From assembly GCA_005888745.1 (NCBI GenBank), contig VBBS01000043.1, forward strand, positions 1 to 40,248: DNA of 40,248 bases. The letters run 5' to 3'. The notes under the pieces were generated by a model. That model searched no databases and had not been told where the DNA came from. It was given only the letters and a program-made list of their open reading frames with translations. The stretch is from Candidatus Bathyarchaeota archaeon (lineage in GTDB: Archaea > Thermoproteota > Bathyarchaeia > 40CM-2-53-6). Positions within the stretch are counted from its first letter, which is position 1. The number at the start of each line of letters is the position of its first letter. The translations under genes were made by a program, and so were the position numbers. Of this stretch, positions 3,491 through 33,476 are shown one piece after another.

Positions 3491-3701
3491 ATCAAGGACA
3501 CCGAGATACTCGCATCAAAATGTGGCAGGAATGTAAATGTTGCAGTTTCCTGGCATGAAAAAATCGCCCTTTATCGAACTCAGCACTCTCAAGCGAGAAG
3601 AAATCTGATGGAAAGACTGGATTGTGGTGCAATGTGGTAGATTGTGTTCTTCCATGGACGTGCTGGTTATATCGCAAGAGCAAGAAGTGGTCATTGAAAT
3701 G

Positions 3702-4739
3702 ATGCCTCTGAACATATCAGTAGTGGGAGCGGGCTACTGGGGTAAGAAAGTGATTCGAGAGATCTTGAACATATCTCAGACTACAGGCCGCGTAAGACTC
3801 TACTCTGTTATCGACAACTCGCCCACAATCCTCGAACAATGCAGAAAGGAATTCGGCCCTCTAAACTATCGTTTGAACTATCACGATCTATTGTCTGATA
3901 AGGCAGCTTCGGTTGCCCACATCTGCTCGCCGAACAACACTCACTTCGAAGTCGCGTCCAAATTCCTAAGATCGAGGAAACACGTTCTCGTTGAGAAACC
4001 TCTCGCTCTCCGAGGAAGGGAAGCCGACGAGCTGGTAAGACTCGCCGACACAACCCACAGGGTTCTCAGCGTGGGACACGTCCACCGGTTCAATAATGGA
4101 GTCAAAGAGCTGAAACGAGTAATAGACAGTGGAGTGTTAGGGGACATCTACTATCTCCGCTTCCGCTGGACAGGTTTGTTACCCCCACAGAAAGACAGAG
4201 ACGTAATTACAGACCTAGGCCCGCACCCCTTCGACATTTGTAATAACCTTCTCGATATTTGGCCAACCAAGATCTCGTGCAGGGGCAGAGGATATCGAGG
4301 CGAAGCAGGCGATGAGGTGGCTTTTATCACCGCTGAACATCTTGACGGCGTCAACGCAAGCATAGAACTCAGCTGGCTGGACATGGAGAAGCACAGAGAT
4401 GTAACAGTGGTAGGCAGCGACGCCGTAGCCCGACTAGACTGCCTCGACCAGAAACTTGTCATTCAAAAACCAGACAAAACGGAGGAAGTATCGACTGCTC
4501 CGAGCAACACGTTGCAGGAGGAGATCATCCACTTCGCTGAATGTGTCGAGAGAGACTCGGACTCAAAAGCATACACAAACCGATCAGATGGAACGCTTGG
4601 CGCTAGCGTCGTTAGGCTCTTGGAGACAGCGAAGCAGTCTCTCCGCGAAGAGCGGACCGTCAGGGTTTCACTCCCAGGAATAGAGGAATTACTCGCAGGC
4701 GAACCCACCCAAACTGGATTCCGTAAACTCACGAACTAG
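3702..4739 (+). CDS. Gfo/Idh/MocA family NAD(P)-dependent oxidoreductase
   Basis: The protein of about 345 residues starts with a Rossmann motif, ISVVGAGYWGKKVIRE, for NAD(P). It then carries the family signature VEKPLAL, whose Lys contributes to catalysis, and the DLGPHPFDICNNLL block holding the acid/base His of the C-terminal alpha/beta domain. Such enzymes oxidise or reduce hydroxyl groups of sugars, inositols or nucleotide sugars. The substrate is not evident and no sugar-nucleotide cluster is next to it. The frame is open to 3624, but the Rossmann strand begins right after the ATG at 3702 and the extra 26 residues look non-conserved, so I chose 3702; the adjacent ATG at 3699 is equally possible. 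Confidence 0.88.
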   Translation: MPLNISVVGAGYWGKKVIREILNISQTTGRVRLYSVIDNSPTILEQCRKEFGPLNYRLNYHDLLSDKAASVAHICSPNNTHFEVASKFLRSRKHVLVEKPLALRGREADELVRLADTTHRVLSVGHVHRFNNGVKELKRVIDSGVLGDIYYLRFRWTGLLPPQKDRDVITDLGPHPFDICNNLLDIWPTKISCRGRGYRGEAGDEVAFITAEHLDGVNASIELSWLDMEKHRDVTVVGSDAVARLDCLDQKLVIQKPDKTEEVSTAPSNTLQEEIIHFAECVERDSDSKAYTNRSDGTLGASVVRLLETAKQSLREERTVRVSLPGIEELLAGEPTQTGFRKLTN

Positions 4740-13667: not shown

Positions 13668-14850
13668 TTGGCGTCTCTGGTGCTCGCGGTGAAGACGGTC
13701 AGACAGAAACATCCGGTCTCACCCGAGCTCCTACGTCTGCTTGACGAGTTCAGGCGCATGGTGAACGTCCGCATCGCGGTTGGAATAGAAGAGAACGTTT
13801 CCAGTCTCAAGACCCTCTCGATGAAATCCTATCATCGTCTCAGCCGAGACATGCTCAGCTATTATAGGCTGTGCGCTATCAGCAAAACCACCGTAATACT
13901 CCAACTCGAAAAGCCAAGAAGGAGAATCCCCGCACAAGGTTTCCAAATGCTCGGAAGCTGATGCTGACCGCATGTTACGGGTTCAAAATCCAGGATGGTC
14001 TTCTCAGACTGCCCGTTAGACTGCGGTTACGTCTATGTCAAGCTGAACAGTCACACTCTACAGATACTCTCCGGGCTTAGTGTGCGCTCGGTCACGCTGA
14101 CCCCAGACTCGCTATGCTTGAGGTACTCGAAGGAGACAGCTGAGATCGAGTTAGAAGGGTACGTTGGAATAGACAGAAACCTGGACAATGTGACAAGCGC
14201 ATCAACGGATGGGACAGTCAAAACATTCGACCTGTCACTGCCGACAAGGATCAAGACCGATCGCATTGTCAAGAGCCAGTTCAAGAGAAACGATGCCCGA
14301 ATCAGAACGCGAATCTTCTCCAAGTGTGGCGAGAGACAGCGTAACCGTGTACGGGCGCTACTCCACAATGTATCCAAGAGAATAGTCGAGGATGCAAAGA
14401 CAAAACGGTACGGGATAGTCATGGAGAAGCTGACAGGGATCAGAAGACTCTACCAGGAAGGGCAACGGGCAGAACAGAAACTATCGGGCCAGGATGAACA
14501 GCTGGAGTTGTAGAGAACTACAACGACAAGTAGAGTACAAGGCGCGATGGGAAGGAGTGAAGGTAATCTATGCTCCTGCTAGGAACACTTCTAAGCGGTG
14601 CTCAATGTGCGGGTACAAGACCCTAGAGAGCACCCAACGAAGACGATGCTGTCCAAACTGTGGAGCCATCCTAGACAGGGACGAGAACGCGGCCAGGAAT
14701 CTGGCTGCGGGAGGGCTGAGGTTCAGGATCAACGGGCCTCCAGGTGAAGCAATGGTAGAGGAACGGGAACCGGAGAACTCGACCCTAATCCTCAAAGTCG
14801 ATGGAGGCAAGCTAAGTCATCAATGCGACGACACTTACCAGAACCCCTAA
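13668..14850 (+). pseudogene. frameshifted TnpB (IS200/IS605 OrfB) remnant
   Basis: Three reading frames together make a nearly full-length TnpB of about 390 residues. The frame switches near 13905 (to RKAKKENPRTRFPNARKL), near 14020 (back to YVYVKLNSHTLQILSG) and near 14458 (to KGNGQNRNYRARMNSW). The RuvC-like nuclease residues are still recognisable: Asp in VGIDRNLDN, Glu in IVMEKLTGI, Asp in LDRDENAARNLA, with the zinc ribbon CSMCG/CPNCG between the last two. TnpB is the RNA-guided nuclease of IS605-type elements. With at least three shifts it cannot be translated whole. No Y1 transposase (TnpA) gene or clear element ends were seen. The frame opens with TTG at 13668; a GTG lies four codons further in. 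The last codons abut the tRNA-Val promoter region. Confidence 0.85.
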
Positions 14851-18842: not shown

Positions 18843-18965
18843 TTGTGGCCCCTGACACCTATATGAGTACAATTGGCGGGCACTTCCACGGTCTCACCGG
18901 AAAAGGATAACCAGCTTAGCCCAGCCCGGACCCCGCAGACCACCTATCCTGTTGGAGGCTCAGTA

Positions 18966-19907
18966 ATGAGCCGCAGGAAGACACGACCCCGAGACGAGGT
19001 CGGACACTACGTCTGCCCGAACTGTGGCAGCCCAAGTCTGGTTCGAGATGCTGAAACAGGCGAGGTCATATGCACCAACTGCGGTTTCGTCCTATCCGAC
19101 CCCGCTGAACAGTATGCCGCACCGGTTCCCAGGCGAACTGAGGAGGGACTGCTTGAGAGCCAGTCAGGACCCCCGGGAAGATTCTCGGCATTTGACAAAA
19201 ACCTCTCCACGATAATCTCCAGGGCCCAAGCATCCAACAGGTCGCTTAGCGCCGACGAGAGGTTGCAATTATGGCGGTTACGAAGAACCCAGCTCCGCGC
19301 GTCCGCTGGATCATCGACTGCCAGAAATCTGTCCCGGGCGATGAGCCAACTACGAGGACTGGCAGGCCGACTTAATCTACCGGAGGTCGTCACCGAGCGA
19401 GCGGCGCTGATGTACAGGAGAGCGCTCAACAAGGGTCTCGTCAGAGGCCGACCGATTAACGGAATGGTGGCCGCCTCGACCTATGCTGCCTGTCGATTAA
19501 CTGATGTGCCTCGCTCTTTGAGCGAGATCGCGAAAGCATCAGGGATGAGCAGGAAACTCCTAGCCCACTACTACAGAGCCCTTGTCCGGTCTCTCGACGT
19601 GACCATGGCTATTGAAGACCCATTGAAACGGGTCTCGAAAATAGCGTCTCGAGCAGGAGCGGACTCTCAAACTGAGATGCTGGCGGGGAAGATTCTTCGC
19701 GAGGCAATCCGGCTAAGGGTCAACGTTGGAAAGGACCCGGATGGTTTAGCAGCGGCCGCGCTGGACCTAGCAGCTAGAATAAGGGGCTCGATGGTTATGC
19801 AGAGAGACCTCGCAAAAGCAGCGGGTGTCTCCGAGGTTACCATACGAAGCAGGATGAGAGATCTCAAGGCTGCGGCCAAATCTCTTGGTCTACCTGACGT
19901 TGCGTAA
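18966..19907 (+). CDS. tfb: transcription initiation factor B (TFB/TFIIB)
   Basis: The 313-residue protein recruits RNA polymerase to TBP-bound promoters. The N-terminal zinc ribbon has CPNC at 17-20 and CTNC at 36-39, the linker has a B-finger/reader region (GRFSAFDKNLSTI), and two cyclin-like repeats follow. The last helix-turn-helix (AKAAGVSEVTIRSRMRDL) is the BRE-binding element. The start ATG at 18966 has GGAGG 8 bases upstream and gives the normal archaeal length; the frame is open further back to 18873 but that extension is not conserved-looking. Confidence 0.95.
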   Translation: MSRRKTRPRDEVGHYVCPNCGSPSLVRDAETGEVICTNCGFVLSDPAEQYAAPVPRRTEEGLLESQSGPPGRFSAFDKNLSTIISRAQASNRSLSADERLQLWRLRRTQLRASAGSSTARNLSRAMSQLRGLAGRLNLPEVVTERAALMYRRALNKGLVRGRPINGMVAASTYAACRLTDVPRSLSEIAKASGMSRKLLAHYYRALVRSLDVTMAIEDPLKRVSKIASRAGADSQTEMLAGKILREAIRLRVNVGKDPDGLAAAALDLAARIRGSMVMQRDLAKAAGVSEVTIRSRMRDLKAAAKSLGLPDVA

Positions 19908-20096: not shown

Positions 20097-21935
20097 ATGA
20101 TTCTGTTTATCATAAGAGAGCCCCTCTCGTACTTTCGACCTTACAAGACATACTTCGTTACCATCTACGCCTTCTTCAACGCATTCCCTATCTCACAAAT
20201 AGTCCTGATCTTTTTCCCTGAGACATACCTGATTAGGCTCACTAGTCAAGGGTTCGCCGCCGCCGCGGCCATCATAGCAACACTATGGGGGCTATTAGTT
20301 ACCAAACTATACTTCTATCCCGAGAAATTCTCGCTACGCTCGGCACTCGCCAATCCTCGGAGGCCAATACACCTTGCCTACCTTCTCTACCTGGTTCCCA
20401 TGGTGTTCCTGGTGATATTGACAATAGCAGATCCGGCGTCTATCGATCCCAGCCCTAGCAGGCAAGCATTCTATGTCATTGACAACAAATATTTCAATGC
20501 GGTCGGGCTGAGTGCACCCCTACTCACGGTCGCCGCAATCGTGATTTCGGCTTTCACTCTCTATTCCTTCATCGTACTATCCCGACTCAGATCGCAACTA
20601 AGGGACCGCGAGGTCAGAGGCGCTCTCAGAGTTATCGCGAGATGTTTCGCAGCGATCGCAACATTGTTGTTACTCGGATATTCCTCAGAAAGCTTCGGAT
20701 ACAACTTACTAGGAGTCGTGCATTTTGCCTGTGTGATTCTTCTCTTCGTTGCAGGGACAGCGTTCAAGAGACCGACGTTCTTGCGAGCATTCCTCGGGCT
20801 GGTTCCGTCCCTAGGCCCAAGTCCAGTTGTGATGCGTGGCGACCAGATTGTTCTAATCTATGAAAATGATGCGGCGAAAATGACACCTATTGCAAGGTTT
20901 GTCAACGAGGGGGTCAACCAACAAAACCGGGTCCTCTACTTTCACTCAAACGACGAGGGGACGGCTCGAGAAGAGCTATCAAGAAACGGAGTGGACGTCA
21001 AACATAACCTGACTAAAGGCAACTTGCGATTACCATCTATTGATAGTCTCTACCAGGGCCAAAACCTTCTTGATGAAGAAGCAGCAATCGGACAATGCCA
21101 AGAACTGGCAAATGAGACAAGAGCCCTGGGCAAGAATGGCCTGCGGATTGTGATAGACTATGCCGACAGCACAAAACGCCCATACCAGAAATTCGTCAGC
21201 CATATTGCAGACTCCAGATGGGCCACGCCGGACCACTATGTGCAAGCAATGATGACGTTTTCCAACCGTGCATTTGAAAACGAGAGAGCAGCCCTTGACC
21301 TTTTGAAATCAAAGGTCCCTGTCATAGACCTAACAGAGTCGAGTGACGTCTTCTCTCGCACGGTTGGTCTGTCCCATGAAGAAATCGCTGGGCGGAAAAT
21401 TCTTCTAGAATATGATCCGGTGTCAGGCTACGAGAAAATACTCAGATCACTGGCAACGGAAGCTGCTTCCAATTTTGAACGAGTAATCCTATTCACAAGA
21501 AAGGATAGCCCCATTCATCCGGCCATGCAGGATGAGCCAGGACTGAAAATGTTTGTACTAACGTCAAGAGTATCATATCCCAAGGTGGAAAGCGAGAACG
21601 TGATCCTCATACCTGCATTCGACAGTTCGCTAATTCTCGACTCGATAAACAGGACAATCGAAGCCTACGCGGCAACACCCTTCACAATAATCTTCGACAA
21701 TATTTCCCACCAAATCTTCACCCTCGGAACCGAAAGAGCTCACTCGTTTGTTCGCCAATCTCTTGAACTGATGGTCTCAGACAAAATCACCAGCGTCTTC
21801 CTGATGAATTACCTTGCCCACGACTCGAAGACAGTTTCTATGTTTGAGAATCTCTTCGATCTCGAACTCATCTCCAGGCCAGGGGCCCGTATTCCCGAGG
21901 TCAGGAAGAAAACCGCGTTGACAGTCCAGTCCTGA
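20097..21935 (+). CDS. 7TM membrane protein with MEDS-like and RecA-like sensory domains
   Basis: At least 612 residues. The first 235 hold seven hydrophobic helices; the first is cut by the ATG at 20097, and the frame continues upstream through TLNIGTIIVDAL to a stop at 20013. No ATG, GTG or TTG lies in that part, so a CTG at 20031 or another near-cognate start is possible. Residues of about 249-400 resemble the MEDS sensory domain (IVLIYENDA, NRVLYFHSND, GLRIVIDYADS). Residues of about 437-600 form a second alpha/beta domain like DUF835/KaiC-type RecA folds but with no Walker A. No kinase or DNA-binding domain is present, so output is unknown. The gene at 31130 is a paralogue in design. Confidence 0.75.
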   Translation: MILFIIREPLSYFRPYKTYFVTIYAFFNAFPISQIVLIFFPETYLIRLTSQGFAAAAAIIATLWGLLVTKLYFYPEKFSLRSALANPRRPIHLAYLLYLVPMVFLVILTIADPASIDPSPSRQAFYVIDNKYFNAVGLSAPLLTVAAIVISAFTLYSFIVLSRLRSQLRDREVRGALRVIARCFAAIATLLLLGYSSESFGYNLLGVVHFACVILLFVAGTAFKRPTFLRAFLGLVPSLGPSPVVMRGDQIVLIYENDAAKMTPIARFVNEGVNQQNRVLYFHSNDEGTAREELSRNGVDVKHNLTKGNLRLPSIDSLYQGQNLLDEEAAIGQCQELANETRALGKNGLRIVIDYADSTKRPYQKFVSHIADSRWATPDHYVQAMMTFSNRAFENERAALDLLKSKVPVIDLTESSDVFSRTVGLSHEEIAGRKILLEYDPVSGYEKILRSLATEAASNFERVILFTRKDSPIHPAMQDEPGLKMFVLTSRVSYPKVESENVILIPAFDSSLILDSINRTIEAYAATPFTIIFDNISHQIFTLGTERAHSFVRQSLELMVSDKITSVFLMNYLAHDSKTVSMFENLFDLELISRPGARIPEVRKKTALTVQS

Positions 21936-21947
21936 TAGCTCGAGATG

Positions 21948-22907
21948 TTACCGGAGAGATCTCGAGTCGCTGAACCGATCCATGAGTTTCGTAAGAAAGT
22001 CGGCGAATCCCCGGATGTTTACACTCGAAATCTTTTTCTCGTGAATGGATACTTTCTGAATGTACCATTGAGCTTTCTTCTTGAAGATTCCTTCGAGTTT
22101 ACTGAGCCTAGGTAGAACGGACAGATCCCCTAGATCTTCTTTTTCGATGAGCCCCCTATGAAGGGCAGCAGATATTATTGGAGAGGAAAGATCCTTCTCG
22201 GCTAATTCGCCCGGATAGGTATTGAGCATGTTTCCAATATGGGCAACCCTTTGTGCGAGGAATCCTACGGCTCTCATCCTTCCGAGATCTCTCATATCAA
22301 AAGTTGAAGAACACATTAGGTCCATATCCATCGCGAGCATAACCATGCATCCATATGAGGAGTACATGTTCATCTCCAGTGGATTGTCAAGCCCTATGGA
22401 ATTCACAAGAGAACTATAGATCATCGAAGTGAAAACCTGGCGGAGGTCAAGATAGAACAGTCTTTCGAACTCTCTGAACCTCGGATAGCTCACGACCGAC
22501 CCTATGTAGTCCTCCCAGATTGTAACACCCGCTTCCAAGTATTCATGCTTCGACCGGGTATTTTGCCATGGGATCTGTAGAAACTCCTCTAGGAGAACCT
22601 GGCTGCGTGTGTCATAGTTATCCGCCAAATCATCAAGCATCACATCAAAAACTGCCATCTTGGTTTTGTCCTCTCCCAACACCTTGCGATAATCGAAACT
22701 CACGCAAGGGAGGCAAATCCAAGAATAGACGTTGTGAATCCACTGGAAGTATTCAGTATTCCTTCGACCTATGGACCTATAGAGTCGAATGACCTCTTCA
22801 AGCTCCAAGCGCTTCGGCGAAATTTCTGAAATGGACTTGTGAAGGACAGGTCGGTCATCCTTTTTCTCTACTACTTGACCTGTCATTGACAAAGCGCTCG
22901 CTCCCAA
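21948..22907 (-). CDS. probable class I terpene synthase
   Basis: The 319-residue, all-helical protein has both metal-binding motifs of class I terpene cyclases at normal spacing: an Asp-rich DDLAD at 92-96 (in VMLDDLADN) and an NSE triad N226-x3-T230-x3-E234 (GNMLNTYPGE). The preceding helix (RMRAVGFLAQRVAHIGN) also fits the pattern before NSE motifs. The Arg usually found about 46 residues before the triad (pyrophosphate sensor) is not obvious. It would cyclise a prenyl diphosphate (farnesyl or geranylgeranyl). The start is TTG with a short leader from a strong box A; ATG at 22886 is an alternative. It converges with the 7TM gene, 12 bases apart. Confidence 0.7.
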   Translation of the reverse strand: MGASALSMTGQVVEKKDDRPVLHKSISEISPKRLELEEVIRLYRSIGRRNTEYFQWIHNVYSWICLPCVSFDYRKVLGEDKTKMAVFDVMLDDLADNYDTRSQVLLEEFLQIPWQNTRSKHEYLEAGVTIWEDYIGSVVSYPRFREFERLFYLDLRQVFTSMIYSSLVNSIGLDNPLEMNMYSSYGCMVMLAMDMDLMCSSTFDMRDLGRMRAVGFLAQRVAHIGNMLNTYPGELAEKDLSSPIISAALHRGLIEKEDLGDLSVLPRLSKLEGIFKKKAQWYIQKVSIHEKKISSVNIRGFADFLTKLMDRFSDSRSLR

Positions 22908-22942: not shown

Positions 22943-22950
22943 CATATAAT
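22943..22950 (-). promoter_or_regulatory. strong box A promoter for the terpene synthase gene
   Basis: ATTATATG on the minus strand lies 36-43 bases before the TTG at 22907, predicting transcription from about 22920 and a leader of some 10 bases. Confidence 0.6.
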
Positions 22951-23533: not shown

Positions 23534-24775
23534 TTGACGGCCTCTGCTGATTTCAGTTTCCTATTTGACCTCGGGCTAGCTGTGTTCGCTGCCCTAGGCT
23601 TCAGCTACCTCTTCTCAAAAATCAAGCAGCCTGTTGTAGTTGGCCAGTTGGTCGCTGGGATAATCATTGGACCTTTCGGGCTCGGGCTCATTCAGAATCT
23701 CAACACGATAAACTTGCTCGCTTCTCTCGGAATAATTCTACTCCTATTCACAGTCGGTCTCGAACTTGACCCTCTAGAGATCAGGAAGATCGGACCGGAC
23801 AGCTTCATACTTGCAGTCGTCGAGCTAACAGTCACTTTCCTCACGGTTACGCTGGTCGGGCTGGCAGTCGGGCTAACACAGCTTGAAGCAGTTTTCGCAG
23901 CAGCAGTAGTCGCCACCACCAGCACAGCGATCATGAGCAAGATTCTGCTTGAAACAAAAAGTCTGCGCCCCAAGGAATCCCACACGGTGGTGACCGCATC
24001 GATAATCGAAGATTTTGCGACGGTCTTCATGCTTCTATTGCTGCCGGGTCTCGCCGCGGCCAGCAACCAAGTCCCCCCAAACGAAATTGTCGTCCTTGTA
24101 ACAAAGGGGGCTTTGCTCGTGGGAATCATCTTCTTCTTCGGCTGGAGAATCGCGCCCTGGCTCATAGAAAGGATCAGCAAGGGAGACCAGGAATACAGAG
24201 AGACTGCGTTCCTGCTCGCGCTCTCTTTTGGCTTCGCGTTCGCGCTTCTCTCTTCCTACCTAGGTTTCTCACCTGCGGTTGGCGCTTTTCTCATGGGCTT
24301 GATGATCCGGGGACCCCAAGCCCAGTTCGTCAAGGAGAAAGTGGGACCTATCAAAGACTTGTTCATCGTGCTTTTCTTCGTCTCTATGGGAACTCTCATC
24401 AACATTGGTGCCCTCCTCACGGTCACACTACCGATCATAGCAGTCTTGGGAATGGCTATCTTCGGAAAATTCCTCGGATGCTGGGCCGGTGCCAGACTGT
24501 CGGGTGCGAAGGATGAAGCCACACTTGTCGGCCTCTCAATGCTTCCTCGTGGAGAATTCTCCTTCATCGTCGCCCAAGAAGGCACTGGTCTGGGCGTCGC
24601 AGCGCAGATTCTCTATCCCGTAGCAGGACTCGCAACCCTAATCAGTTCTATCATGTCCTCAATCGGGCTTCGACTCTTCAAACCTAAGACAAGTCCTGAC
24701 GGTCCGAAAATCAAGATTTCTCAACGCCTAAGACAACTTGCCCGCCCCAGAAACATCAACAGGGAAAAGAGTTGA
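23534..24775 (+). CDS. CPA2-family cation/proton antiporter (KefB/Nha-like)
   Basis: The 413-residue protein has about 12 membrane helices. Family marks are KIKQPVVVGQLVAGIIIGPF in helix 2, the LGIILLLFTVGLELDP block, and the central TTSTAIMSKIL...IEDFATVFML region carrying the acidic ion-binding residue. It exchanges Na+ or K+ for H+ and helps pH and ion balance. There is no C-terminal RCK/TrkA-N domain, only a short basic tail, so it lacks the nucleotide gate of Kef systems. Start is TTG. The stop overlaps the next membrane gene by 4 bases. Confidence 0.92.
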   Translation: MTASADFSFLFDLGLAVFAALGFSYLFSKIKQPVVVGQLVAGIIIGPFGLGLIQNLNTINLLASLGIILLLFTVGLELDPLEIRKIGPDSFILAVVELTVTFLTVTLVGLAVGLTQLEAVFAAAVVATTSTAIMSKILLETKSLRPKESHTVVTASIIEDFATVFMLLLLPGLAAASNQVPPNEIVVLVTKGALLVGIIFFFGWRIAPWLIERISKGDQEYRETAFLLALSFGFAFALLSSYLGFSPAVGAFLMGLMIRGPQAQFVKEKVGPIKDLFIVLFFVSMGTLINIGALLTVTLPIIAVLGMAIFGKFLGCWAGARLSGAKDEATLVGLSMLPRGEFSFIVAQEGTGLGVAAQILYPVAGLATLISSIMSSIGLRLFKPKTSPDGPKIKISQRLRQLARPRNINREKS

Positions 24776-26971: not shown

Positions 26972-27379
26972 ATGCCTCGATCTGGCCGTCAGAGGGTGCC
27001 TGGAGAGCAGCTTAAGCCGCCGCTAAGATTCATGGTCCAAGAGCACCATGCCCGTCGGTTGCACTGGGATTTCCGACTCGAGTTGGATAGCGTCTTGAAG
27101 AGTTGGGCTGTCCCTAAGGGTCCACCAACCGAACTAGGAGTCAAGCGGTTGGCCGTCGAAGTTGAGGATCATCCCCTGAGCTATTTTGGGTTCGAAGGGA
27201 TTATTCCGAAGGGTGGATATGGTGCTGGGGAGGTTAAGGTCTGGGACAAGGGATACTATGTCTTAGAACTCAGAGAGCCGCGAAAATACCACGTGCTGTT
27301 GAAAGGCCAGAAGTTGAAAGGTGACTATCGTTTGATCAATTTCAAGGACAAGAACTGGTTAATCTACAAAGTCGCGTGA
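26972..27379 (+). CDS. stand-alone LigD-type 3'-phosphoesterase
   Basis: The 135-residue protein equals the phosphoesterase module of bacterial ligase D. It removes 3'-phosphates or 3'-ribonucleotides at DNA ends before sealing. Active-site residues are His25 and Asp33 in EHHARRLHWDFRLE and His67 in VEDHPLSY; KSWAVPKGP and GGYGAGEVKVWDKG are conserved blocks. No ligase, polymerase or Ku gene is nearby, so it works as a separate enzyme, as known in some archaea. Confidence 0.92.
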   Translation: MPRSGRQRVPGEQLKPPLRFMVQEHHARRLHWDFRLELDSVLKSWAVPKGPPTELGVKRLAVEVEDHPLSYFGFEGIIPKGGYGAGEVKVWDKGYYVLELREPRKYHVLLKGQKLKGDYRLINFKDKNWLIYKVA

Positions 27380-31129: not shown

Positions 31130-32917
31130 TCAGAACTCTGCCTTCACGACTCTGAGACCTTGGTTCTCCGTGTCGTCAAGCCTCATCTGGACAGAAAACA
31201 AGCCTCTCAACGCGCCTAAGAATCGGCCCTCGGTTGTCTCCTTATTGACGAGAAATATTGCCGTGACGGTTGAAGGGCTCAACAACTCGATCAGCTGCTT
31301 GATACCCGAGTAGACTTGCTCCCACCTTTCACCTCGGATCAGCTCGGAGATGCTGTCGAAGACAAAGCTCAAAGCAACAGACTTGTTATTCTCAAACAAA
31401 TTCGTAACAAGCGAGGTCACCAGCCCCAGCTCCTTATCCGGGATCTGGATCTCTCCATCCGGAGATTCGTCCGGGGCAGAGACGAGAGAAGAAGCCGCGA
31501 CTATCCGCACCATTCTCTTTCCCTTCAACGCTCTGTAGAGCTTGCTAGACTTGGACGTGAAGAGCGCGCACATCTCAGCATTAGCGATCCCCTCGTCGAA
31601 GAACTTTTTCACCAAGTCCTCAAAGTTCGAGTTCGAGGAGTACTCAAGGAGAATCTTTGAGCCCTCAATTCTTGGATGGTCCAGGTTGACAAGGGTTGAG
31701 AAAGGGTCAGACGCCTCTGAGAGGTTGACGAGCTCAACGTCCCCGTTCTTCTGGAGGAATTCAGCAACTTGGGGCCGAGGTGCCTGGCTGGACTCCAACA
31801 GAAGCACTTCTGCTTCGGGTTCATTCCTTGAATCGCTCGGATTCGACACGATCGAGTCCTGAAGATCCTGCCGTTCCAGCTCTTTCACAAACACGGTTGC
31901 TGTCTGGCTCAGACCAAACTTGTCGGAGAGACCTTCTTTCCCAGATCTTTTGTCATCAGAACTGGCCGAGGATGTGACGAACTTTCCGTTCTCAGCCCAT
32001 TCGTTGAATCGAGAATCATTGCGTGATAGTCCCTCTACGAGCCATGTGGCCGGAGACTTGAGAACCACCTTAGCCCCGGCCTCTATGGTGCTTCGAAAAG
32101 CAGATGATAGAAACGATATTGATCGCATGCCGCTATCGTGTAAGACTAGGTATCGTTTTCCGAGTTTTATCAGACTCTGAGGGAAGAGGCTGCTTTTCAA
32201 GAACCTAGTAGTTCCGGGAAGGGTCCGGATCGAAATGGCTAGCAGGCAATAGAGCGCTGAGCTGATGATAAGCCCAAGCTCGTAGGAGAATGGAATCATC
32301 GGAGATAAGAGAAAGAAAACGACCAGCCCCACCGTGGGAAAACAGAGCCAGCTGGACAACATTAGCAGAAGAGAGTTTCTCGTATACGAAGTCTGGGCAC
32401 GGCGCAGAGATGAGAGAAGCAGCAGGGAAGGATACAAGATGATAGGAGCCGCAACTGCAGCGGTAAGGGCAATGTACCATGAGGGAAATGCAGGCAACAC
32501 GTATGCCTCGTTCCCGTACATCGTTAGGGAAGAGGTTACTGGTTCAAATGTGAGTGTAACTGCAAGCCATGTGCCAAGAATTAGGAGAAATAAGGGGAAT
32601 AACATGGTTCTCTTGAGAATGATCTTCATAGATTCTCCCCATGTTCTAGCGTCTGGGCAGAACTGGACAACTGCTGCGGCGTGGCCAAAGTTCATCGCGA
32701 CTAGGAAGAAGCCAAAAAGCATTACGTAGGTTGCGATGCTGCTTTGGGCTAGGATTCTATCTATATCGGCCGCCAGAATTAGGAAGAAGTAGATGTTTAG
32801 CCGAATTAGGTTGCGTCGTGCAATCCCGACAAACGAAGGTTTCTGCCTGATGAGCAGCCACAAGGAAAGGGCCGGAGCGACCATCGCAACTAAGTCTAGA
32901 TAGATGGGAGTGGACAT
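31130..32917 (-). CDS. 7TM membrane protein with degenerate MEDS-like and RecA-like domains
   Basis: The protein of about 595 residues has seven membrane helices in its first 245 residues and a soluble C-terminal half. The last domain (from GSKILLEYSSNSNFEDL through SVALSFVFDSISELI) matches the last domain of the 20097 protein (GRKILLEYDPVSGYEKI; FTIIFDNISHQIF). The middle part (RYLVLHDSGMRSISFL onward) looks like a diverged MEDS domain with an inserted charged linker. There is no P-loop, kinase or HTH. ATG at 32917 places helix 1 at the N-terminus, better than the GTG-like start at 33034. Confidence 0.75.
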   Translation of the reverse strand: MSTPIYLDLVAMVAPALSLWLLIRQKPSFVGIARRNLIRLNIYFFLILAADIDRILAQSSIATYVMLFGFFLVAMNFGHAAAVVQFCPDARTWGESMKIILKRTMLFPLFLLILGTWLAVTLTFEPVTSSLTMYGNEAYVLPAFPSWYIALTAAVAAPIILYPSLLLLSSLRRAQTSYTRNSLLLMLSSWLCFPTVGLVVFFLLSPMIPFSYELGLIISSALYCLLAISIRTLPGTTRFLKSSLFPQSLIKLGKRYLVLHDSGMRSISFLSSAFRSTIEAGAKVVLKSPATWLVEGLSRNDSRFNEWAENGKFVTSSASSDDKRSGKEGLSDKFGLSQTATVFVKELERQDLQDSIVSNPSDSRNEPEAEVLLLESSQAPRPQVAEFLQKNGDVELVNLSEASDPFSTLVNLDHPRIEGSKILLEYSSNSNFEDLVKKFFDEGIANAEMCALFTSKSSKLYRALKGKRMVRIVAASSLVSAPDESPDGEIQIPDKELGLVTSLVTNLFENNKSVALSFVFDSISELIRGERWEQVYSGIKQLIELLSPSTVTAIFLVNKETTEGRFLGALRGLFSVQMRLDDTENQGLRVVKAEF

Positions 32918-32978
32918 GTTTACCCTTTCCTGGCCCTCTGGGTGTTTGTGAGAGTGTGTTTGGCGATTAGCGTAGGTT

Positions 32979-33476
32979 TCAAGATAACGTAACTGAGCGG
33001 CTTGGCCTATTGTTACTCGACTTGTCACGCCCACGGGTTCCTCTCTTGAGACTCGAAATCGCCGTTTCGACCCTTCCCGTTAGCAGCTGGTATCCTTCCG
33101 CGTTCAACCTCTTCCGACGCCGACTGCCAGCCCAGATAGGGCGTCCCCACATTGGGTCCGAGGTGTATCTAGGGACCAGGTGCCAGTGAAGATGTGGCAT
33201 CGAATTCCCCAATAGCTCATAGTTCATCTTGTCAGGCTTGAACGCCCTCGACAGTGCACTTGCAACAAGCGACATGTCCTCTAGAAACTGCTTGCGATCC
33301 TTGTCGGCCAATCTGTAGAGTTCCTCTTCGTGCCACTTTAGTGTAAGGAAGGTGTATCCTTCAAACGCTTGATCCGGATTCAGCTTCGCAACTGACACCC
33401 GAGACTCATAGAAGACAAGATTCTTGGGCTCGTAGATTCCTTGGCACATCCAGCAGTCGGCCTGCAGACGCGACAA
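32979..33476 (-). CDS. HIT-family hydrolase
   Basis: The protein of about 165 residues has the histidine triad HLHWHLVPRY near residue 98, a zinc-like CWMC at the N-terminus and the strand NPDQAFEGYTFLTLK. HIT proteins hydrolyse nucleotide conjugates such as Ap4A or AMP-amines. The frame is open to 33596, but that part crosses the promoter and antisense to ileS; TTG at 33476 gives the family length and begins a few bases after the predicted transcript start. A basic Ser/Arg-rich tail ends it. Confidence 0.85.
   Translation of the reverse strand: MSRLQADCWMCQGIYEPKNLVFYESRVSVAKLNPDQAFEGYTFLTLKWHEEELYRLADKDRKQFLEDMSLVASALSRAFKPDKMNYELLGNSMPHLHWHLVPRYTSDPMWGRPIWAGSRRRKRLNAEGYQLLTGRVETAISSLKRGTRGRDKSSNNRPSRSVTLS

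Follow-up and report, generated by a model that had tools for sequence, protein, structure and literature searches.

The window analysed here, the whole stretch of 40,248 nucleotides from a Candidatus Bathyarchaeota archaeon, carries on its minus strand an open reading frame at 21948..22907 which begins with a TTG codon and encodes a 319-residue protein resembling the class I terpenoid synthases. An earlier note on this DNA had given the protein that length, and the frame is real, but an aligned TTG-TC in 10 of 10 Bathyarchaeia loci favours position 22892 over 22907 as the start, so that the true coding sequence is likely to be 21948..22892 (-), with 314 residues. A GGAG-like stretch lies upstream of the 22892 start in the window and in some relatives, and the profile match obtained in a class-wide search likewise begins at 22892. 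The gene also has the box A that had been attributed to it, a TATA-like element (ATTATATG) upstream at 22943..22950 (-), 58 nt before the 22892 start. Seven of the 10 Bathyarchaeia loci have an ATTATAT 48-60 nt ahead of the start, and the 49-bp promoter and leader region that contains the box A has a single occurrence in its own genome when up to three mismatches are allowed.

The gene is convergent with that of a membrane protein with a MEDS sensory domain, at 20097..21935 (+), and the two therefore do not belong to one operon. All 10 Bathyarchaeia loci have a member of this membrane protein's family next to the gene, the MEDS domain itself having been tested in three of them (the window, L024 and L026). 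The same side holds an archaeal TFIIB gene at 18873..19907 (+), whose family is present in 10 of 10 loci, and on the opposite side lies a Na+/H+ antiporter gene at 23534..24775 (+), present in 9 of the 10, the contig of the tenth ending first. These kept neighbours indicate that the locus is part of an archaeal chromosome and no stray bacterial contig. The gene has no biosynthetic partner beside it in the window. Three related loci have, within about 9 kb, a three-gene block coding for a UbiA prenyltransferase, a geranylgeranyl-reductase-like flavoprotein and a MarR-like regulator (L024 198-3354; L026 15312-18445; L030 44-3178), whose domains were tested in L024 only, and a search of the window for the three families yielded no member.

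Several further features of the region may be recorded in their own right. A second membrane protein of the window, at 31130-33034 (-) and 9 kb away, clusters with the MEDS protein of 20097-21935, and its own MEDS score falls below the cut-off. Two overlapping open reading frames at 13995-14850 (+) contain a CxxC zinc motif seen by eye, and presumably correspond to a split TnpB-type transposon protein. At 26972-27379 (+) there is a stand-alone protein consisting of a DNA ligase D 3'-phosphoesterase domain (PF13298, E 4e-38). In a distant genome that contains a fragment of the gene (G628), a V4R-domain protein is encoded directly upstream on the same strand (L054 8859-10367), which is again a sensor-type neighbour, in a distant lineage.

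The distribution of the family is patchy in the genomes sampled. An order-wide search gave a match in 10 of 38 genomes, of which nine are among the 18 of the same genus and one belongs to a sister genus; a relative in the MAG Candidatus Bathyarchaeota archaeon BA_9 is 90% identical and represents the same locus as L003, as does L002, so that the locus is counted once. When the search was extended with a profile to the class, 11 of 256 genomes were matched, the eleventh by a weak local match, and no convincing further member was found in these genomes. A phylum sample of 398 genomes contained one distant genome (G508) with two paralogs (E 1e-54 and 3e-48), and 300 genomes of the order of G508 contained one more relative, the G628 fragment, which is cut by a contig end; neither the 10 genomes of the G628 family nor the 250 of the G508 family yielded a further full member. 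The two G508 paralogs (L052 and L053) both lie near contig ends, with a repeat or mobile region as a possible cause. Beyond the phylum, coverage consisted of one pattern scan of genome contigs and one of viral contigs, and the 66 pattern matches on viral contigs included no relative. Weak genome matches at E 0.002-0.2 were excluded from membership, as was G896, and one locus of this excluded group (L045) was found on inspection to have no homolog among its listed open reading frames.

The gene is absent from nine genomes of the genus, four of which were examined. Three of these (G006, G011 and G015) retain the MEDS gene and the promoter region but have an unrelated open reading frame in the slot of the gene, behind that promoter region (L085 about 3555-4235 (-); L086 6372-7052, 226 residues; L087 453-1037, 194 residues as listed). 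The slot frames have no Pfam match above the cut-off; they adjoin the MEDS gene, and in the two cases where the contig extends that far they also adjoin the antiporter gene. They are a non-homologous replacement of the gene. The fourth genome (G016) has only part of a MEDS relative, and the gene is not beside it.

By sequence profiles the protein is placed in no known family. Pfam and NCBIfam scans of single members and of alignments gave no match, and this includes the Terpene_syn_C_2 profile (PF19086), against which a comparison had been suggested in the earlier note, the squalene/phytoene synthase profile (PF00494) and the trans-isoprenyl diphosphate synthase profile (PF00348), none of which matched the protein in the Pfam scans. 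A PF19086 search of the protein's own genome was also without a match, and the sole Terpene_syn_C_2 match in the class (1 of 256 genomes) was rejected when its locus was read by eye and found to hold a prenyl diphosphate synthase. A search of the PDB sequences with the single sequence returned a weak match to sabinene synthase over the DD motif (E 0.5), while searches with profiles returned unrelated matches only (A1) or none (A2). When the family was compared by hhalign with 12 Streptomyces terpene synthases and 11 prenyl synthases, none of the alignments exceeded its reversed controls, the score against the terpene synthases being 14.0 versus 15.4 for the reversed control; the best path nevertheless pairs DDLAD with DDHFD, and NMLNTYPGE with NDVLSLEKE.

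The two putative metal-binding motifs reported in the earlier note lie where it had placed them in the minus-strand frame, 134 residues apart. The first, DDLAD at residues 92-96 (22620..22634 (-)), forms the end of a predicted helix spanning residues 71-96, and its D92, D93 and D96 are identical in 13 of 13 members. The second, the NSE/DTE-like triad N226-x3-T230-x3-E234 (22206..22232 (-)), lies within a predicted helix spanning residues 205-236 and is present in 12 of the 12 sequences that span it. T230 is identical in 13 of 13 members, as are Y231, G47, R49, K81, R101, E178 and R212; N226 and E234 do not vary among the 12 spanning sequences. The remaining sequence, the G628 fragment (L051), has L in the N226 column and ends before E234, and it gives the triad no support. 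The N, T and E ligands of the canonical (N,D)Dxx(S,T)xxxE are thus found in 12 of 12 spanning sequences, but the D of its second position is not kept: the residue after the triad Asn is M, L or I in the family.

The comparison with known enzymes was made using 14 loci on one Streptomyces clavuligerus plasmid, of which 12 were kept and two (L061 and L069) were dropped by a filter that required [ND]Dxx[ST]xxxE, so that the controls are canonical by choice and provide no test of the second-position D. One of them (L068) carries the NDLHSFARE and RRHGG given in PMC13244428 and is therefore probably hydropyrene synthase itself. The spacing from DD to triad is 134-144 in the family; among the 12 controls it could be read in 8, with values of 138-143, while three others (L062, L066 and L070) gave no DD match, and a fourth (L071) gave a value of 177 which was taken as chance and left out.

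How often such a pair of motifs would arise without any functional cause can be estimated by shuffling. In shuffles of three family members, the pair at these spacings appeared 51, 51 and 62 times per 100,000, from which about one protein with the motif pair would be expected by chance in each genome. At about 5 in 10,000 shuffles the pair alone is weak evidence and no proof, and the weight of the case is carried by the invariance of the motifs in distant homologs, which are 28-35% identical to the window protein, together with the predicted fold. The conservation has a counterpart at the level of codons: of the eight homolog pairs computed, six have a finite dS and give dN/dS values of 0.06-0.16, the other two being saturated, and the homologs are under strong purifying selection.

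An AlphaFold model computed with 10 close sequences was poor (pLDDT 42.7), and after the addition of three distant members, for a total of 13 sequences, the AF2 model reached a pLDDT of 82.3 and a pTM of 0.80; the alignment behind the good model contained family members only and no known terpene synthase. The model is all-helical, as the protein had been described, and it has a break at residues 182-183 between helices spanning 176-181 and 184-198, in keeping with the helix G1/G2 break that passages of PMC10563020, PMC9018054 and PMC13244428 describe for terpene synthases. A Foldseek search of the PDB gave 660 matches with E up to 10, and the best 50 of these 660, which were examined, are by their printed names all class I terpenoid enzymes. 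Ranks 1-11 are all terpene synthases, and over the best 50 of the 660 terpene synthases account for 39, the other 11 being prenyl diphosphate synthases or prenyltransferases, where many of the 50 rows are repeat chains of the same enzymes and the kinds of BjKS, TPT3, HEPS2 and tolypothrichol synthase are our assumption. The top matches include T-muurolol, pentalenene and hydropyrene synthases, with TM by query up to 0.62, and E below 0.001 is reached by two chains of one entry only, the diterpene synthase 9m25 (E 7.2e-4). Terpene synthases had also occupied Foldseek ranks 1-4 with the first, poor model, without significance. In a fold search of a viral library, three of the 50 listed matches have a probability of 0.99-1.00 as opposed to at most 0.15 for the rest; the top one is a trans-prenyltransferase, and no listed viral match reaches E 0.001. 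The structure prediction and comparison that had been proposed as a check on the terpene synthase idea is therefore positive, in that the protein is predicted to have an all-alpha class I fold which is closest to that of the terpene synthases.

The family departs from the canonical enzymes most clearly in the recognition of diphosphate. The pyrophosphate-sensor Arg is termed highly conserved in a passage of PMC9543850, and all 12 Streptomyces controls have an Arg at the corresponding place, which lies 44-46 residues ahead of the triad. The suspicion that this residue is missing from the window protein extends to the whole family: a sensor Arg or Lys is absent from helices G1-G2 in 13 of 13 members. 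The region of the G1/G2 break at residues 176-186 (22350..22382 (-)), in which E178 is kept in 13 of 13, contains no Arg or Lys in the 13 members, and the few basic residues in the stretch compared sit at its edges (L006, L049 and L051). Since the helix-G Arg is missing, diphosphate recognition is probably altered and would rest on other basic residues, for which the candidates are R49, K81 and R101, which are invariant, and R311, which is found in most members. R101 (22605..22607 (-)) lies five residues past the last Asp of DDLAD and is kept in 13 of 13. R311-F312 (21972..21977 (-)), 85 residues after N226, is a possible counterpart of the C-terminal RY pair; at this position, +85 to +87 from the Asn, 10 of 12 members have R or K followed by F, Y or W, and 2 of 12 have A-Y.

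Taken together, these observations make it highly probable that the protein is a class I terpenoid enzyme, and they lend reasonable though not strong likelihood to the more specific reading that it is a divergent archaeal class I terpene synthase, a variant without the sensor Arg. The proposal of a terpene synthase made in the earlier note thus holds insofar as the predicted class I fold and the two Mg-site motifs agree with it, and falls short insofar as profiles do not group the protein with terpene synthases. In a terpene synthase of this kind, D92, D93 and D96 together with N226, T230 and E234 would form two metal sites holding three Mg2+ ions, to which an allylic prenyl diphosphate (GGPP or FPP), presumably supplied by the cell's own prenyl diphosphate synthases, would be bound through its diphosphate group. 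Polyprenyl synthases are found in 21 of the 21 genomes searched in the taxonomic family, with two in the protein's own genome, so a prenyl diphosphate substrate should be available. Departure of the diphosphate would then leave an allyl cation, which would yield a cyclic or linear terpene hydrocarbon or alcohol; the cyclic terpene inferred in the earlier note would be one of these possible products.

A noncanonical prenyltransferase would ionise an allylic diphosphate in the same way and then join the cation to IPP or another acceptor, and this reading, though unlikely, is the main alternative. The class I fold is common to both kinds of enzyme, and prenyl synthases and prenyltransferases contribute the 11 matches noted among the best 50 of 660 in the PDB, as well as the top viral match, but terpene synthases rank above them in the PDB search. 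The sequence around the first motif resembles that of the prenyl synthases, since DDxxD-x4-R is found in 11 of the 11 compared and in 13 of 13 family members, with an Arg at this position in only 1 of 8 readable control terpene synthases (L065); the His that lies seven residues before DD in the 11 synthases is absent from the family. Similarly, at the place where 10 of the 11 synthases have GKR the family has an invariant G47-x-R49, ahead of its second predicted helix, but GKR itself is not kept, position 48 being R, T, H or E. The second DDxxD of the prenyl synthases is absent and an NSE-like triad is found instead in 12 of 12 sequences, there is no PF00348 match on the protein, and its genome already has two normal polyprenyl synthases. 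The mixture of features can also be read as the mark of a separate archaeal branch, combining a prenyl-synthase-type DDxxD-x4-R and basic loop with a terpene-synthase-type NxxxTxxxE and no sensor Arg, which would be either a form midway between prenyl synthases and terpene cyclases or a case of terpene cyclisation having arisen independently in archaea; we regard this as a speculative and rather doubtful idea.

It is improbable that the protein keeps the class I fold with its catalysis lost or changed, as a prenyl diphosphate hydrolase or as a protein that binds or senses and works together with the product of the adjoining sensor gene. The lack of a sensor Arg in every member would accord with such a role, as would the MEDS-family gene that adjoins in 10 of 10 Bathyarchaeia loci, the V4R protein directly upstream in G628, and the unrelated frame that takes the same slot in three genomes of the genus, but all six putative metal ligands persist under strong purifying selection, as would be unnecessary in a protein that only binds, and the MEDS gene is convergent and hence outside the operon of its supposed partner. 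Least of all is it to be believed that the motifs arose by chance in a helical protein of no relation to these enzymes and that the fold match is misleading. The shuffling frequency of the motif pair, the failure to find a significant sequence relation to any known family, and the poor quality of the model built without the distant members all lean that way; against them, the columns that survive at 28-35% identity are few and include both motifs, and the class I fold was predicted without any terpene synthase in the alignment.

If the divergent terpene synthase proposed here is active, it would provide a terpene pathway for Bathyarchaeia and for at least one further lineage of archaea, and it would be a natural case in which to ask whether diphosphate ionisation can proceed without the helix-G sensor Arg. 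Since the family is missed by Pfam and NCBIfam and is tied to class I by predicted structure only, genome mining based on profiles would overlook it. Most known terpene synthases come from plants, fungi and bacteria. A literature search by title found no paper on this archaeal family. An archaeal terpene synthase as such has nevertheless probably been reported already and is probably not new, to judge from the title of a preprint by Samusevich et al. on archaeal terpenoid biosynthesis via structure-based prediction (10.1101/2024.01.29.577750, cited in PMC12797696). The part of PMC12797696 that describes MARTS-DB mentions rare archaeal examples among its enzymes, and the reference given there is to a farnesylgeranyl diphosphate synthase, a prenyltransferase.

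Among known systems, the archaeal terpenoid enzymes of Samusevich et al. may overlap with the present family, a likeness drawn from the title alone. The giant-virus terpene synthase of Jung et al. 2023, as cited in PMC12797696, offers a tentative comparison: uncharacterised Cedratvirus and Pithovirus proteins, which may or may not be that enzyme, rank 2-3 in the viral search (E 0.06-0.09) and are similar in fold only. The trans-isoprenyl diphosphate synthases (PF00348) have the same fold, DDxxD-x4-R and a basic loop before the second helix, but the family is without their second DDxxD, their GKR, the His before DD and a match to their profile. From the microbial class I terpene synthases (PF19086), of which hydropyrene, T-muurolol and pentalenene synthases are examples, the family differs in having no profile match, no sensor Arg and no D after the triad Asn, and its RY pair is partial; it shares with them the same predicted fold, size and helix-G break, and the combination of DDxxD and an NSE-type triad, motifs described for terpene synthases in passages of PMC13244428, PMC9543850 and PMC9018054, at matching spacing.
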